From Maricaulaceae bacterium EIL42A08 (GTDB lineage Bacteria; Pseudomonadota; Alphaproteobacteria; Caulobacterales; Maricaulaceae), in the NCBI GenBank assembly GCA_024178355.1, contig JAMZNZ010000002.1, forward strand, positions 725,501 to 789,500: DNA of 64,000 nucleotides, given 5' to 3'. How positions within the stretch are numbered: the first letter of the stretch is position 1; each line of letters starts with the position of its first letter. Below are positions 29,552-34,364 of the stretch, one piece after another. The position numbers and the translations under genes are program-made. The notes beneath the pieces are model-generated. The model saw only the letters and a list, made by a program, of their open reading frames with translations, had not been told where the DNA came from and ran no database searches.

Positions 29552-32083
29552 ATGGTCCAGCGTCGACTGACCCGCGACGGCGAGACTTTTGCTGACAGCC
29601 TGGCTTTCTGTGACCGGCCCATGGTGCCGGGCGACCCGGATGTGATCGCCGACGAGACTACCGAGGCTGTTGTCCAGACGCCCGACGCCTGGAGCGACGC
29701 AGCCGCGGCCGCTTTCGCCGTGCTGACCGGCTCTGAGTTCGATGCGGACCTTAATGCAGGTCAGATTCTCGAAGCGCTCGGGGTCGAGCTTGCCGCGGCT
29801 GCGGGCCTTGAAGGCGTTGCCGCTGCCGAGCTTGCCGCCTCTTTGTTGATGCGCGAAGCCTGCCCGGCCCCGGCCCTGTGGCGTAGCCAGCTTCTTCCGA
29901 TTGAGTCGCCGGCATCTGCTGAACCAGCTGAAGCGCTGGATGCAGTTATTGATGCGCTCAACGGTGCGACCATGGGCGAAGCGGCCGCAACGCTGGGCGC
30001 GCGCATTCTGGCGGAGCGCCTGGAAGCCATTGGGCTGGCGTGCGTCAATTGCGATGGCAACGACGAGGAATGCTTCGATCCGCGCCGCAATCGAGCCTTG
30101 GCCCGCGCTATCCGCGCAGCACGCCGGGACGGTGCTCCCGACGCCATGATCGAGCGCGCCATTGCTCGTGCGCGTCAGGGCGTCATCACACCAGAAGCCG
30201 GACTTAACACTGCGCCGCCGCAGACACAGACGCCGCCCGTTCGCCTCGACGCAGATTTCTTCGACGCTGACGACACCGATCCAGCCGTTCGCAAGCTGTC
30301 CGAAGCGCTGTGGACACACGGCGCGCCGACGCTTCATTTCGACGATATCGAGCCTGCCCTGCCCCAGGCCGTTGTGCTGGAGCTCAGCGCCTTCATCACC
30401 GAGGGCAAGGCTGATCTTGAAGCGCTTCAAGCGGCGACTGAGCTTTGGAGCCTGGTGGCGAAAAGCGCGGGCGGTTCGCTTGGCCTGAGCGGGCTGGGGG
30501 CGGCCCTCACCGCAGCGCGCTGTGCCTATGACAGCGACGAGGGGCGCGAGCTTGCTGCGACGCTGATCACCACGATCAAAGCCTCCAGCGCGGCACCGTT
30601 GAGCCTTGAGCGATGCGACGGGACGCTTGCGACCTTCCTTGAAACCGAAAGCATTTCGATCCACCCGATCAGCACGGTTGCTGGGACTGAAGGCGGTCTG
30701 GCGGCGTGCGTCACGGCTGCGCTTTCTGAGCTTCACCCGGCCAAGCTGGCCCAGGTGCAACGCCATGCGCTCGGCACCCAGGCACTCAGCACCCATGACG
30801 CTGAATGGATTGATGCGCTGAAGCGCCAGGGCGTGGATGAAGACTGCTTTGCTCGCATTGATGCGGCCATCGCCGAAGGCGCGCCGCTGCGCTTTGCCAT
30901 CAATCGCTGGACACTGGGCGAGGAAATCGCACGCCGCTGCGGGCTGTCGCCGGACCAGTTTGATGCTGCCGGTGGCCGCTTGCTGGAAGCGCTGGGCGTT
31001 GATCCACTCGACATCACCGCGGCGGAGCGTCACGTGCATGGCGCAGGCACGCTGGATGACTGTCAGGCGCTCAGCGATGATCTGCGGGCTGTGTTCGCCA
31101 CGCCTGACGTGGAAGCCCGCCTCGCCATGGCCGAGGCCGTTGAAACCGCGCTTGAAGCCCCGTGCGGGCTAGATATCGCCCTGCCCGGCTCTGCGACCAT
31201 TGAGGAAGCAGGCCAGATCGCAGCCTCAGCGGCCCGTCGCGGTCTGAAGTCTGTGACTGTTCGCCGGGAGGGTCAGGCGCTCTATGACCTGCTCAATACC
31301 ATCGAGTTTGAGGGCGGCGACTATGGCCGCCGCGAGATGATCGCCGAAGAGCGGGTGATCGAACGCGTGGTGGAGAAATATGTCGAGCGCGCCACCGAGC
31401 GCCGCAAGCTGCCCGATCGGCGCAAGGGCTATATCCAGAAGGCCACCGTGGGTGGTCACAAAGTCTACCTGCACACCGGTGAGTTTGAGGATGGCGAGCT
31501 GGGCGAAATCTTCATCGACATGCACAAGGAAGGGGCCGCCTTCCGCTCGCTGATGAATAATTTTGCGATTTCGATCTCCATCGGCTTGCAATATGGCGTG
31601 CCGCTGGAAGAGTTTGTGGATGCCTATCTGTTCACACGGTTCGAGCCAGCCGGCGATGTGGACGGTAATGATTCCATCACCCACGCCACCTCAATCCTGG
31701 ACTACATCTTCCGTGAACTGGCGGTGAGCTATCTGGGCCGTGATGACCTGGCCCACACCGACGCCGATCCGCGCGATCATGCCGGGCTCGGGCGTGGGGT
31801 GGCTGAGGAAAAGCTCGCTCAGGAAGCCGATGCAGCGAGCCTCATCTCCAAGGGGTTCTCGCGCGGTCAGCTGCCCGACAATGTAGTGATGCTGGGCTCC
31901 CGGCCCCGCCCGGAAGCCACCGACACGCCTGCCCCCGCACGCGGTTCAGGCCCGGCCAGCGCGCCGGTGCCCAGCTATCACGGCGAGCCGTGTCCCGACT
32001 GTGGTCACTTCACCCTGATCGAAGGCGGAGCCGAGCTTGATTGCGACGCCTGCGGCTGGTCCGGCCCACCTCCAGGCGGGTAG
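29552..32083 (+). CDS. Class II ribonucleotide reductase (NrdJ)-like protein lacking the catalytic core
   Basis: 843 residues, clearly derived from B12-dependent NrdJ but much shorter than the about 1200-residue alphaproteobacterial enzyme I recall. Blocks align in order: TPDAWSDAA (43-51), ACVNCDGNDEECFDP (163-177), ARQG (207-210), AYDSDEGREL (325-334), INRWTLGEE (450-458), AERHVHGAGTLD (491-502), GSATIEEAGQ (546-555), and a nearly intact C-terminal region (about 620-735, GGHKVYLHTGEFEDGELGEI..). The NPCSE active-site block and neighbouring glycyl/substrate loops are absent, as is any equivalent catalytic cysteine, so reduction is not expected. It ends in a zinc-ribbon-like CPDC (814-817)/CDAC (831-834). 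AAGGAG at 29541-29546 fixes the ATG at 29552. The long frame is intact with normal composition, suggesting a working protein of changed function. Confidence 0.85.
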   Translation: MVQRRLTRDGETFADSLAFCDRPMVPGDPDVIADETTEAVVQTPDAWSDAAAAAFAVLTGSEFDADLNAGQILEALGVELAAAAGLEGVAAAELAASLLMREACPAPALWRSQLLPIESPASAEPAEALDAVIDALNGATMGEAAATLGARILAERLEAIGLACVNCDGNDEECFDPRRNRALARAIRAARRDGAPDAMIERAIARARQGVITPEAGLNTAPPQTQTPPVRLDADFFDADDTDPAVRKLSEALWTHGAPTLHFDDIEPALPQAVVLELSAFITEGKADLEALQAATELWSLVAKSAGGSLGLSGLGAALTAARCAYDSDEGRELAATLITTIKASSAAPLSLERCDGTLATFLETESISIHPISTVAGTEGGLAACVTAALSELHPAKLAQVQRHALGTQALSTHDAEWIDALKRQGVDEDCFARIDAAIAEGAPLRFAINRWTLGEEIARRCGLSPDQFDAAGGRLLEALGVDPLDITAAERHVHGAGTLDDCQALSDDLRAVFATPDVEARLAMAEAVETALEAPCGLDIALPGSATIEEAGQIAASAARRGLKSVTVRREGQALYDLLNTIEFEGGDYGRREMIAEERVIERVVEKYVERATERRKLPDRRKGYIQKATVGGHKVYLHTGEFEDGELGEIFIDMHKEGAAFRSLMNNFAISISIGLQYGVPLEEFVDAYLFTRFEPAGDVDGNDSITHATSILDYIFRELAVSYLGRDDLAHTDADPRDHAGLGRGVAEEKLAQEADAASLISKGFSRGQLPDNVVMLGSRPRPEATDTPAPARGSGPASAPVPSYHGEPCPDCGHFTLIEGGAELDCDACGWSGPPPGG

Positions 32084-32151
32084 TCGCAAGAACGGCGCAA
32101 GGCTTGCAGTCCTACATCTGAACGCTCGATAAAGGGCGGTGGAGCTGCGCC

Positions 32152-32655
32152 ATGATGAAACAGATTTTGCTTGCTTTAACCGTTTCGGCCCTCTCGGCCG
32201 TTCCCGCTCTTGCACAGAATGCGTCTGAGATTGCGCGCGTTCAAGCGGGGCAATCCTGTTCGGGCTGCAACCTGTTCCAGGCGGATCTGGCCTACCGTGA
32301 CCTGCCCGGCATCGACGTGTCCGGGGCGCGCCTGCGCCAAGCCAATCTCAGCCTCGCCACCATGAACCAGGCCAGCTTTGATCGCGCCAATCTGACCGTC
32401 GCCAATCTGTTCGGAGCGCGCTTTACCGGGGCCAGCTTCCGCAATGCCGATCTATCACAGGCCGTTGCCGTGGGAGCCCATTTTGGCGGCGCGAACCTGT
32501 CTGGAGCCGGGCTTACGGGCACCAATCTTTCCGGCGCAGAATTAGCTGACGCCCACGGCCTGACCCAGGCACAGCTCAACACCGCCTGCGGCGATCATAC
32601 CACACAGCTCCCGGCTGGCCTGACCATTCCGGCCTGCAACCTTTCTGCCTACTGA
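32152..32655 (+). CDS. Exported pentapeptide-repeat protein
   Basis: 167 residues: a signal peptide (about 1-22, ending ALAQ), then a CSGC motif (C36, C39) leading into about 20 pentapeptide repeats of the A(N/D)LSx type (about 40-138), which form a right-handed quadrilateral beta-helix. A C-terminal cap contains C146 and C162 with 15 residues between, and the pattern CG..TxLPxG. In the oxidising periplasm both caps could hold disulfides. Function unknown. GGAG at 32141-32144 precedes the ATG by 7 bases. The second pentapeptide-repeat gene begins 53 bases later. Confidence 0.88.
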   Translation: MMKQILLALTVSALSAVPALAQNASEIARVQAGQSCSGCNLFQADLAYRDLPGIDVSGARLRQANLSLATMNQASFDRANLTVANLFGARFTGASFRNADLSQAVAVGAHFGGANLSGAGLTGTNLSGAELADAHGLTQAQLNTACGDHTTQLPAGLTIPACNLSAY

Positions 32656-32708
32656 GAATTACTGCGAATTAAGTCGATCTTGCTGTGTCAGGCGAGTAAC
32701 TTACCGCC

Positions 32709-34307
32709 ATGACCTTGCGTGATGCTCTCATTTCGGCCGCCTCTGCGATCTGCCTGGCTAGCCCCGCGCTTGCTGGCGGTGGTGGGGAACAGGGCCCACA
32801 CCGTAGCCTCGTGATTGGTGGCGACTGCGTGGAATGCACGTTTGAGGGCGCGAATCTGGCGGGCGCCCAATTCCTCGGTGGCGACTTTCGCGATGCCAAT
32901 TTCGATCGGGCTGAAATGCTCGGCGCGCGGCTTGTAGACCTGACTCTGCAGGGGGCAAGTTTTGAGCGTGCCTCGCTCAACGAAGTTCATATCGCCAATT
33001 CCGGACTTGAAGGCGCAAATTTCGAGAATGCGACGCTGACCCGCGCTCGCTTCCATCAGGCACGGCTTGTTGGTGCAAACCTGTCTGATGCGTCAATGAG
33101 CCAGTCGGTGATGCTTCTGGTCGATCTGACCGGAGCGAACCTGTCCAATGTCGCAGCGAATTCCAGCGTCTTCCGGCAAGCCAATTTCAGCGCAACGCGG
33201 TTGCGCGATGCCGGTCTGAGCAACGCCCATTTCATCGGAAGCCGCCTGATTGGTGCCGATGCACGCAACGCCAACTTTTCCGGGAGTATCTTTGAAAATG
33301 TGGATCTGACCGGGTCTGATTTTCGAGATACGAACCTGGTCGGGGTGCGTTTCCGGACCGTCGATGTCACTGGCGTCGATTTTCGAAATGCCAATGGTCT
33401 AAGCAGCAGCCTATTTGCACGAGCTTGCGGCGTTGATGCACGCGGCCTTCCAGACGACGTTGAGCTTGGCCCATGTGGCGAAACGCGTCAGAGCATTGAC
33501 GATGAACACATCACAGTTGCTGTAGCGGCAAGTCGCGAGGCTCTGGAAAACCTGCGCCAACAGCGGCGCGCCCAGATCGAGGAAGCCCGTCACGCCTTTG
33601 AGCAGGCAATCGGCAATATTGAAGTGCGAGTCGGTAGTTCTGATCGCATACGCCTGGAGGCAATTGCCGCCGCGCGCGAAGGCTGGGAAGCGGCAGCCGA
33701 GGCTTTGGCCGAAGCTGAATTCGAGCTGGCCGAGAACGGCGAAGAGATGAACTGGTCGTTCGACATTCGCCGAGCCGAGCTGGGCGAGCCGATCCGAATT
33801 ATTCTTGAACAGGCCGCGCCGCAAGACGTCGTGGTCTTCACCCGGCGCGAAACGATGGAAGCTCCGCCACCGCCGCCCATGCCGGAGGCCCCGAAACTGC
33901 CCCAGCGCGCGGACGCGATCTTTATTGCTGAAGACGGCACGGCGATCACCCGGGACGCTGAAATCATCCTGATTGAACGCAGCTTGAGCGCGGCTGATAT
34001 CGGCTTTCTGATCGAAGCGACCGCCAACGACTTCAACCGGCGGGACAATGCCGAAACCCTGTCCTTCCGTGACGTTCAGGCAGGTGTCTGGGCACGCAGC
34101 AATGAGACTCAGCTTCCCATCCTGTGTGGTGAGGTCGAGCTTGAGGACGGCTGGACGCGCTTTGCCACCGTGCGCAATGAGGGCTTTGAGATTTCTCTGG
34201 GCGGATCTGGTGAAGCCATCTGCGATGGCGATGCAGCCACCATTCAGCCCAGCGCCGATCTCGCCATCCGCATTGAACGCCGCCTGACCCAGCTTGCCGT
34301 AGACTGA
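32709..34307 (+). CDS. Exported pentapeptide-repeat protein with a C-terminal extra region
   Basis: 532 residues: a signal peptide (about 1-22), a CVEC motif (C40, C43) opening a long pentapeptide-repeat helix (about 40-235), and a cap with C240 and C256, the same 15-residue spacing and CGxxxxxLP pattern as its neighbour. Beyond the cap, residues about 265-350 are Glu/Arg/Ala-rich and likely coiled coil. Then comes a Pro-rich linker (EAPPPPPMPEAP, near 395) and a C-terminal region (about 410-532) with no motif I recognise. Probably an arisen fusion of the repeat domain to an envelope or partner-binding module. Function unknown. Confidence 0.87.
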   Translation: MTLRDALISAASAICLASPALAGGGGEQGPHRSLVIGGDCVECTFEGANLAGAQFLGGDFRDANFDRAEMLGARLVDLTLQGASFERASLNEVHIANSGLEGANFENATLTRARFHQARLVGANLSDASMSQSVMLLVDLTGANLSNVAANSSVFRQANFSATRLRDAGLSNAHFIGSRLIGADARNANFSGSIFENVDLTGSDFRDTNLVGVRFRTVDVTGVDFRNANGLSSSLFARACGVDARGLPDDVELGPCGETRQSIDDEHITVAVAASREALENLRQQRRAQIEEARHAFEQAIGNIEVRVGSSDRIRLEAIAAAREGWEAAAEALAEAEFELAENGEEMNWSFDIRRAELGEPIRIILEQAAPQDVVVFTRRETMEAPPPPPMPEAPKLPQRADAIFIAEDGTAITRDAEIILIERSLSAADIGFLIEATANDFNRRDNAETLSFRDVQAGVWARSNETQLPILCGEVELEDGWTRFATVRNEGFEISLGGSGEAICDGDAATIQPSADLAIRIERRLTQLAVD

Positions 34308-34334: not shown

Positions 34335-34364
34335 AACCCCGGCTCGCCTGAGCCGGGGTTTTCC
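34335..34364. terminator. Bidirectional terminator between the pentapeptide-repeat gene and aspS
   Basis: AACCCCGGCTC (34335-34345) pairs with GAGCCGGGGTT (34350-34360) around a GCCT loop. TTTT follows on the plus strand and TTTTTT on the minus strand, so it can end both convergent genes. Confidence 0.9.

Follow-up and report, generated by a model that had tools for sequence, protein, structure and literature searches.

The window (the whole stretch of DNA analysed, 64,000 nucleotides) encodes two neighbouring, apparently secreted pentapeptide-repeat proteins, here called PPR1 and PPR2. Their coordinates are collected in Table 1 together with the features around them. Both proteins match the Pfam family PF00805 far above its cut-off of 20.2 bits (74.7 bits for PPR1 and 114.3 bits for PPR2), and both show the hallmarks of pentapeptide-repeat proteins, i.e. 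a run of eight or more A(D/N)LXX repeats and a quadrilateral beta-helix. An earlier sequence-only reading of this DNA had described the two ORFs, their repeats, the positions of their cysteines and a common cap motif, all of which could be confirmed by ORF calls, Pfam searches and alignments. Structure prediction, which had been suggested as a check, was carried out for both proteins, and the AlphaFold models show a beta-helix between the caps with a pLDDT of about 98. Each protein begins with a hydrophobic signal-like segment that ends in ALA-Q or ALA-G. Similar N-termini are present in those PPR1 and PPR2 relatives that we inspected, the signal peptides of the two proteins and of the relatives being judged by eye.

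Table 1. Features of the PPR1-PPR2 locus (positions in the window)
Feature	Coordinates	Strand	Description
NrdJ-like protein	29552..32083	+	844 aa; matches PRK07562 positions 715-1140 of 1222, plus TSCPD
Predicted sigma-54 (RpoN) -24/-12 element	32094..32107	+	GGCGCAAGGCTTGC; 45 nt upstream of the start codon (ATG) of PPR1
PPR1	32152..32655	+	167 aa putatively secreted pentapeptide-repeat protein; signal peptide 1-21 (by eye), beta-helix ~36-145
PPR1 N-terminal CxxC cap	32257..32268	+	C36/C39, opening CxxCNLFQADL; invariant in 39 homologues
PPR1 C-terminal cap	32587..32637	+	ACGD..T.LP.GL....C, C146/C162; C162 invariant, C146 at least 90%; spacing 16 in 39/39
Direct-repeat element	32659..32676	+	TTAC-N6-TTAAGTCG; PPR1-PPR2 intergenic, candidate response-regulator site of PPR2
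PPR2	32709..34307	+	532 aa putatively secreted pentapeptide-repeat protein; signal peptide 1-22 (by eye), beta-helix ~35-256
PPR2 N-terminal CxxC cap	32826..32837	+	C40/C43; invariant in 39 homologues
PPR2 C-terminal cap	33426..33476	+	C240/C256; invariant in 39 homologues; spacing 16 in 33/39
PPR2 paired long helices	33480..33734	+	Residues 258-307 and 313-342; AlphaFold secondary structure, aligned tails
PPR2 proline-rich stretch	33849..33908	+	EAPPPPPMPEAPKLPQ; matches Pro-rich tails of most relatives (alignment)
PPR2 C-terminal extension	33909..34304	+	~Residues 401-532 (~130 aa), contains C473/C505
GC-rich hairpin with T/A tracts	34337..34362	.	Between PPR2 and convergent aspS; read from sequence

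In the PPR2 model, the beta-helix is followed by two long helices, and confidence is low beyond about residue 396. The paired helices correspond to a coiled-coil-like tail of the Maricaulaceae, and the helical tails of relatives align with them. The C-terminal region, which had been called unknown, gave no Pfam match, and among the genomes searched it has a full-length match only in one close relative (G012). Two more pentapeptide-repeat open frames with a family match were noticed in the same genome (L104, 6670-7980, 437 aa; L105, 7318-8388, 357 aa).

The cysteine caps are the best-conserved feature of the two proteins. PPR1 has cysteines at positions 36, 39, 146 and 162, and PPR2 at positions 15 (within the signal peptide), 40, 43, 240, 256, 473 and 505. 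In both proteins the third and fourth cap cysteines lie 16 residues apart (15 between them), and the CG.....LP motif is common to both C-terminal caps. Among 39 homologues of PPR1, which have a mean column identity of 65%, no substitution occurs at C36, C39 or C162, and C146 is retained in at least 90%. The 39 PPR2 homologues have a mean column identity of only 22%, and their only invariant columns are G38, C40, C43, C240 and C256; the presence of CxxC played a part in the choice of start codons for these rows, so that the N-terminal cysteines count as only partly independent evidence. Three partner ORFs of the pair tally described below are devoid of a recognisable CxxC. The distance from the first to the third cap cysteine is 110 residues in 38 of the 39 PPR1 homologues and 200 residues in 34 of the 39 PPR2 homologues, the remainder having 170 or 180, and all PPR2 values are multiples of five. 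The caps thus keep to the register of the five-residue repeat. Judging from these alignments, the cysteine pattern in both proteins goes beyond what chance would produce.

The same type of cap is found outside the pair. Single secreted-looking pentapeptide-repeat proteins of other alphaproteobacterial families share the CxxC start and an ACGD/N..T.LP....C cap, again in phase with the repeat, which argues that the capped module is old and more widespread than the PPR1-PPR2 pair. They differ from both proteins in size, with open frames of about 270-370 aa and a distance of 215 residues between the first and third cysteine (nine such proteins) as opposed to 110 or 200. This wider group likely contains the Sinorhizobium protein that was called a YjbI orthologue in the EMBO J paper. 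A tree of the cap-to-cap regions places PPR1 and PPR2 on opposite sides of one branch with a support of 100/100, although long branches and the repeats make the detail inside PPR2 unsafe. Together with the conserved caps and their spacing, this tree supports the earlier suggestion that the two proteins derive from one ancestral capped module.

PPR1 and PPR2 belong to a conserved synteny block with the order accB-accC-aat-DUF2155-NDUFA12-nrdJ-like-PPR1-PPR2-aspS. The NrdJ-like protein consists of the C-terminal half of a B12-dependent ribonucleotide reductase and a TSCPD domain; the main catalytic barrel is missing. It is encoded by the sole copy in the genome, and two orthologues from Caulobacter-group relatives show the same truncated architecture. 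The position of the pair directly behind this gene had been described as unexplained. At four loci, PPR1 and PPR2 lie beside aspS with no NrdJ-like match within the stretch that was fetched. The idea of the NrdJ-like gene as a functional partner is weakened by this persistence of the pair next to aspS and by the upstream element that PPR1 has of its own. The neighbour is probably not part of the system and mainly reflects conserved synteny. At the other end of the pair, the hairpin between PPR2 and aspS was read directly from the sequence and was not on the list returned by the terminator scan; its GC-rich stem and T/A tracts make it a likely bidirectional terminator.

The window comes from an Oceanicaulis-type genus, and its named relatives belong to Oceanicaulis, Maricaulis, Glycocaulis, Caulobacter and Brevundimonas, among other genera. 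We found 80 named loci with PPR1, and 78 of these had enough contig to be scored. A PPR2-type gene lies directly downstream of PPR1 on the same strand in 66 of the 78 scorable loci across the order. The conserved gene pair that the sequence-only reading had proposed to search for was thus found, the absence of co-occurrence that it had named as a refutation was not observed, and on the strength of gene order and tree we regard it as real and ancient. In the window the gap between the two genes is 53 nt and contains no recognisable terminator, which makes read-through from PPR1 into PPR2 likely. None of the six Asticcacaulis loci has a PPR2 next to PPR1, and the same holds for Hirschia and both Robiginitomaculum loci. 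Conversely, a strong PPR1 match is missing in 12 of 75 genomes of the genus Caulobacter, and a PPR2-type gene is still there in eight of the nine such genomes that were checked. In the six of these Caulobacter loci in which the motif was found, the zinc-ribbon tail of the NrdJ-like protein is encoded directly upstream of PPR2; at these loci PPR1 appears to have dropped out of its position. Neither gene strictly needs the other, since PPR2 stands alone in several Caulobacter species and PPR1 in several other genera.

Upstream of PPR1, we noticed the motif GGC-N7-TTGC, which is present in 62 of 81 loci. Shuffled sequences contained it in 1.9 loci on average (maximum 6), and random stretches of the PPR1 loci in 3.0 (maximum 8). 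Further Caulobacter loci carry the element in 24 of 30 cases. When TTGC is taken as anchor, 52 of 55 loci have GG at a distance of exactly 10 nt upstream, and no other offset is shared by more than 9; this list is weighted towards motif-bearing loci, so that the peak is informative about the offset and not about prevalence. The element fits the sigma-54 promoter pattern of a -24 GG and a -12 GC spaced 10 nt apart, and one RpoN homologue is encoded in the genome. It is predicted to be an RpoN promoter, and PPR1 would then depend on RpoN. Among the four enhancer-binding proteins of Caulobacter, the motif that contacts sigma-54 is confined to FlbD and TacA (PMC10274813), which makes flagellar or stalk control a natural guess for PPR1.

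PPR2 is preceded by a different element, a direct repeat with the conserved form TTAC-N6-TTAAGTSG. The pattern TTA-N6-8-TTAAG occurs in 76 of 97 PPR2 upstream regions (some genomes being counted twice), compared with a mean of 0.56 and a maximum of 3 in shuffled sequences. It also precedes PPR2 in the Caulobacter loci from which PPR1 is absent. Since the two genes have different upstream elements and that of PPR2 is kept where PPR1 has been lost, they seem to have separate inputs. The PPR2 element looks like a direct repeat of the response-regulator type. CenR was discarded as the binder, because its published motif TGA-N8-TGA does not match. The CtrA motif TTAA-N7-TTAA has a different spacing. 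The yjbI promoter has been reported to be a target of UzcR (PMC12864828), so that UzcR is the first candidate for the PPR2 element.

A genome-wide regulon defined by this motif found no support. The strict form has a single occurrence in the genome, below the count of its backwards control, and the looser form showed no clear excess in six genomes. We did observe a few TTAC-N6-TTAA-like sites just upstream of other ORFs, one of them membrane-protein-like in the genome of the window and the others ABC-exporter permease-like or efflux-adaptor-like in Caulobacter. Such sites may hint at a small envelope or efflux regulon.

A published function is available for one protein of this kind. A 2026 study of Caulobacter crescentus described CCNA_01968 (PerA/YjbI) as a secreted pentapeptide-repeat protein whose beta-helix has a conserved cysteine pair at either end (PMC12864828; Garcia-Bayona 2019 as cited there). 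It is located at the outer-membrane surface and degraded under zinc stress, and its loss activates the UzcSR and ChvGI systems, which it otherwise silences (PMC12864828). The two cysteine pairs are found in PPR1 as well as in PPR2, and the C-terminal tails tell the two apart. The tail mutant of PerA/YjbI combined K284A/K287A with removal of the terminal lysine, while the length of YjbI is given as 183 residues in the same paper (PMC12864828); one of these figures must be a slip. The PPR1-type proteins, with about 165 aa and no Pro/Lys tail, might be taken for YjbI orthologues from the length of 183 residues, and are excluded by the mutated K284 and K287. Pro/Lys tails are found in the Caulobacter PPR2-type proteins, and one complete genome (G276) encodes a PPR2-type protein of 291 aa with lysines at exactly positions 284, 287 and 290. 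Moreover, PPR2 adjoins aspS across the order. In C. crescentus CB15, aspS is CC_1892, which we take to be adjacent to CCNA_01968 from the offset between the CC and CCNA tags.

From the lysine numbering and the synteny, PPR2 is probably the orthologue of PerA/YjbI. Counting against orthology, 183 residues fit neither K284 nor the length of PPR2, and the PPR2 of the window is only about 25-30% identical to its Caulobacter relatives. The two share a pentapeptide beta-helix behind an export signal, a predicted one in PPR2, and the two flanking cysteine pairs; the C-terminal tail of such proteins is variable and charged or proline-rich. They differ in that the PPR2 of the window has long helices and, after its Pro-rich stretch, an unrelated extension in place of the short PPKPPK tail. 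The genome also encodes a protein with a ChvG-type sensor domain. In the papers on PerA/YjbI that we consulted, we found no mention of a PPR1-type companion or of a sigma-54-type promoter. It appears that the long protein is of a known kind with a published function in Caulobacter, and that the companion PPR1, its sigma-54-type promoter and the PPR2 element are new.

Other exported pentapeptide-repeat proteins provide a structural parallel. The cyanobacterial and plant proteins Rfr32 (2F3L/2G0Y), Rfr23 (2O6W) and At2g44920 (3N90) resemble PPR1 and PPR2 as exported or lumenal beta-helices with cysteine-stabilised caps, and 2F3L can be superposed on the PPR1 model with 1.5 A over 99 columns. In our reading, their cap sequence differs from ACGD..T.LP.GL....C. 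We know of no conserved pair in these systems.

That the two proteins are exported and have a role unlike that of Qnr had been proposed from the signal peptides, and both points are supported; for the PPR2-type relative of Caulobacter, a role at the outer-membrane surface has been shown experimentally (PMC12864828). The periplasm, where the sequence-only reading had placed both proteins, is probably too narrow a location, as PerA/YjbI sits at the outer-membrane surface. The possible disulfides are not supported in the form suggested. Maleimide probing of intact cells labelled two YjbI cysteines, and another two once EGTA had been added, in each case without reduction (PMC12864828), which argues for free thiols in the Caulobacter protein. 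On the other hand, cap disulfides are known from lumenal pentapeptide-repeat proteins, namely the C39-C42 bracket of Rfr23 and the C-terminal capping disulfides of Rfr32 and At2g44920 (PMC8145042), and these favour the disulfide idea. The invariant cysteines in proteins of low overall identity pose the question whether they form a disulfide, remain free thiols or serve as metal ligands.

These observations can be combined into a model. PPR2 would be a Sec-exported, cysteine-capped beta-helix at the outer-membrane surface. As long as it is in place, the two-component systems for envelope stress would stay silent, and stress would remove it. We can only infer what PPR1 does. Encoded beside PPR2 and belonging to the same capped family, though shorter and better conserved, it would probably also be located at the outer membrane and may act with PPR2 in the same sentinel function. 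Its supply would be set by the predicted sigma-54 promoter, which in this order would mean mainly flagellar or stalk control, and that of PPR2 by the response-regulator-type element in front of its gene, through which PPR2 would be replenished after stress. We consider it probable that PPR2 is such a PerA/YjbI-like sentinel, with PPR1 as its RpoN-supplied partner and with PPR2 refilled through its own element.

The two proteins might instead work independently in the envelope, with PPR2 doing the job of PerA/YjbI, PPR1 having a separate RpoN-dependent role in the flagellum or at the stalk or pole, and their adjacency being a relic of tandem duplication. This would agree with the different conserved elements in front of the two genes, with the loci that carry PPR1 alone in Asticcacaulis, Hirschia and Robiginitomaculum or PPR2 alone in several Caulobacter, and with the much slower evolution of PPR1. 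Direct adjacency at most of the scored loci across a very long divergence, and the likely read-through from PPR1 into PPR2, are harder to reconcile with a mere relic, and we regard independence as somewhat unlikely. A stronger version of the partnership, in which a sigma-54-timed short beta-helix and a stress-refilled long one, possibly as a heteromer, form an outer-membrane sentinel with two inputs, also appears unlikely in this specific form.

A purely structural role would account for the conservation of the caps, which exceeds that of any other feature. The two proteins would then be disulfide- or metal-capped spacers in the LPS layer that stiffen the outer membrane, and the signalling changes of yjbI mutants would be secondary. 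In published molecular dynamics the helix of YjbI lies within the LPS layer, the cyanobacterial relative binds calcium (PMC12864828), and lumenal pentapeptide-repeat proteins bracketed by disulfides are known. However, according to the EMBO J study the defects of the mutants stem mainly from mis-regulated genes and not from a structural defect of the outer membrane, the probed thiols reacted without reduction, and YjbI without cysteines is still turned over by zinc (PMC12864828), so that this role seems very unlikely. A gyrase-protecting or DNA-mimic function of the Qnr/MfpA type is extremely improbable. Qnr, MfpA and HetL do share the right-handed quadrilateral beta-helix with PPR1 and PPR2, and QnrB and MfpA appear among the Foldseek and HMM matches. 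They differ in having no signal peptide and no cysteine caps and in acting in the cytoplasm, whereas the closest studied relative of our proteins is extracytoplasmic. In addition, PPR1 and PPR2 score far below the curated cut-offs, with 30 and 65.6 bits against the Qnr model (cut-off 240) and 27.4 and 46.5 bits against the MfpA model (cut-off 360).

We therefore return to the sentinel with a partner as the preferred reading. In Caulobacter, PerA/YjbI has recently been recognised as a sensor at the cell surface, with control over the entry of antibiotics, over efflux and over the sensitivity to bacteriocins. If its probable orthologue PPR2 is kept across the order together with a more conserved capped beta-helix, the picture of a single protein is incomplete. 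Through the predicted RpoN promoter of PPR1, one can ask directly whether the sensing of envelope stress is coupled to the cell-cycle and flagellar programme. Should the sentinel indeed have two inputs, the threshold for the envelope-stress response would depend on the stage of the cell cycle or on the cell pole, and PPR1 would be a component not described so far, which some Caulobacter species lack.
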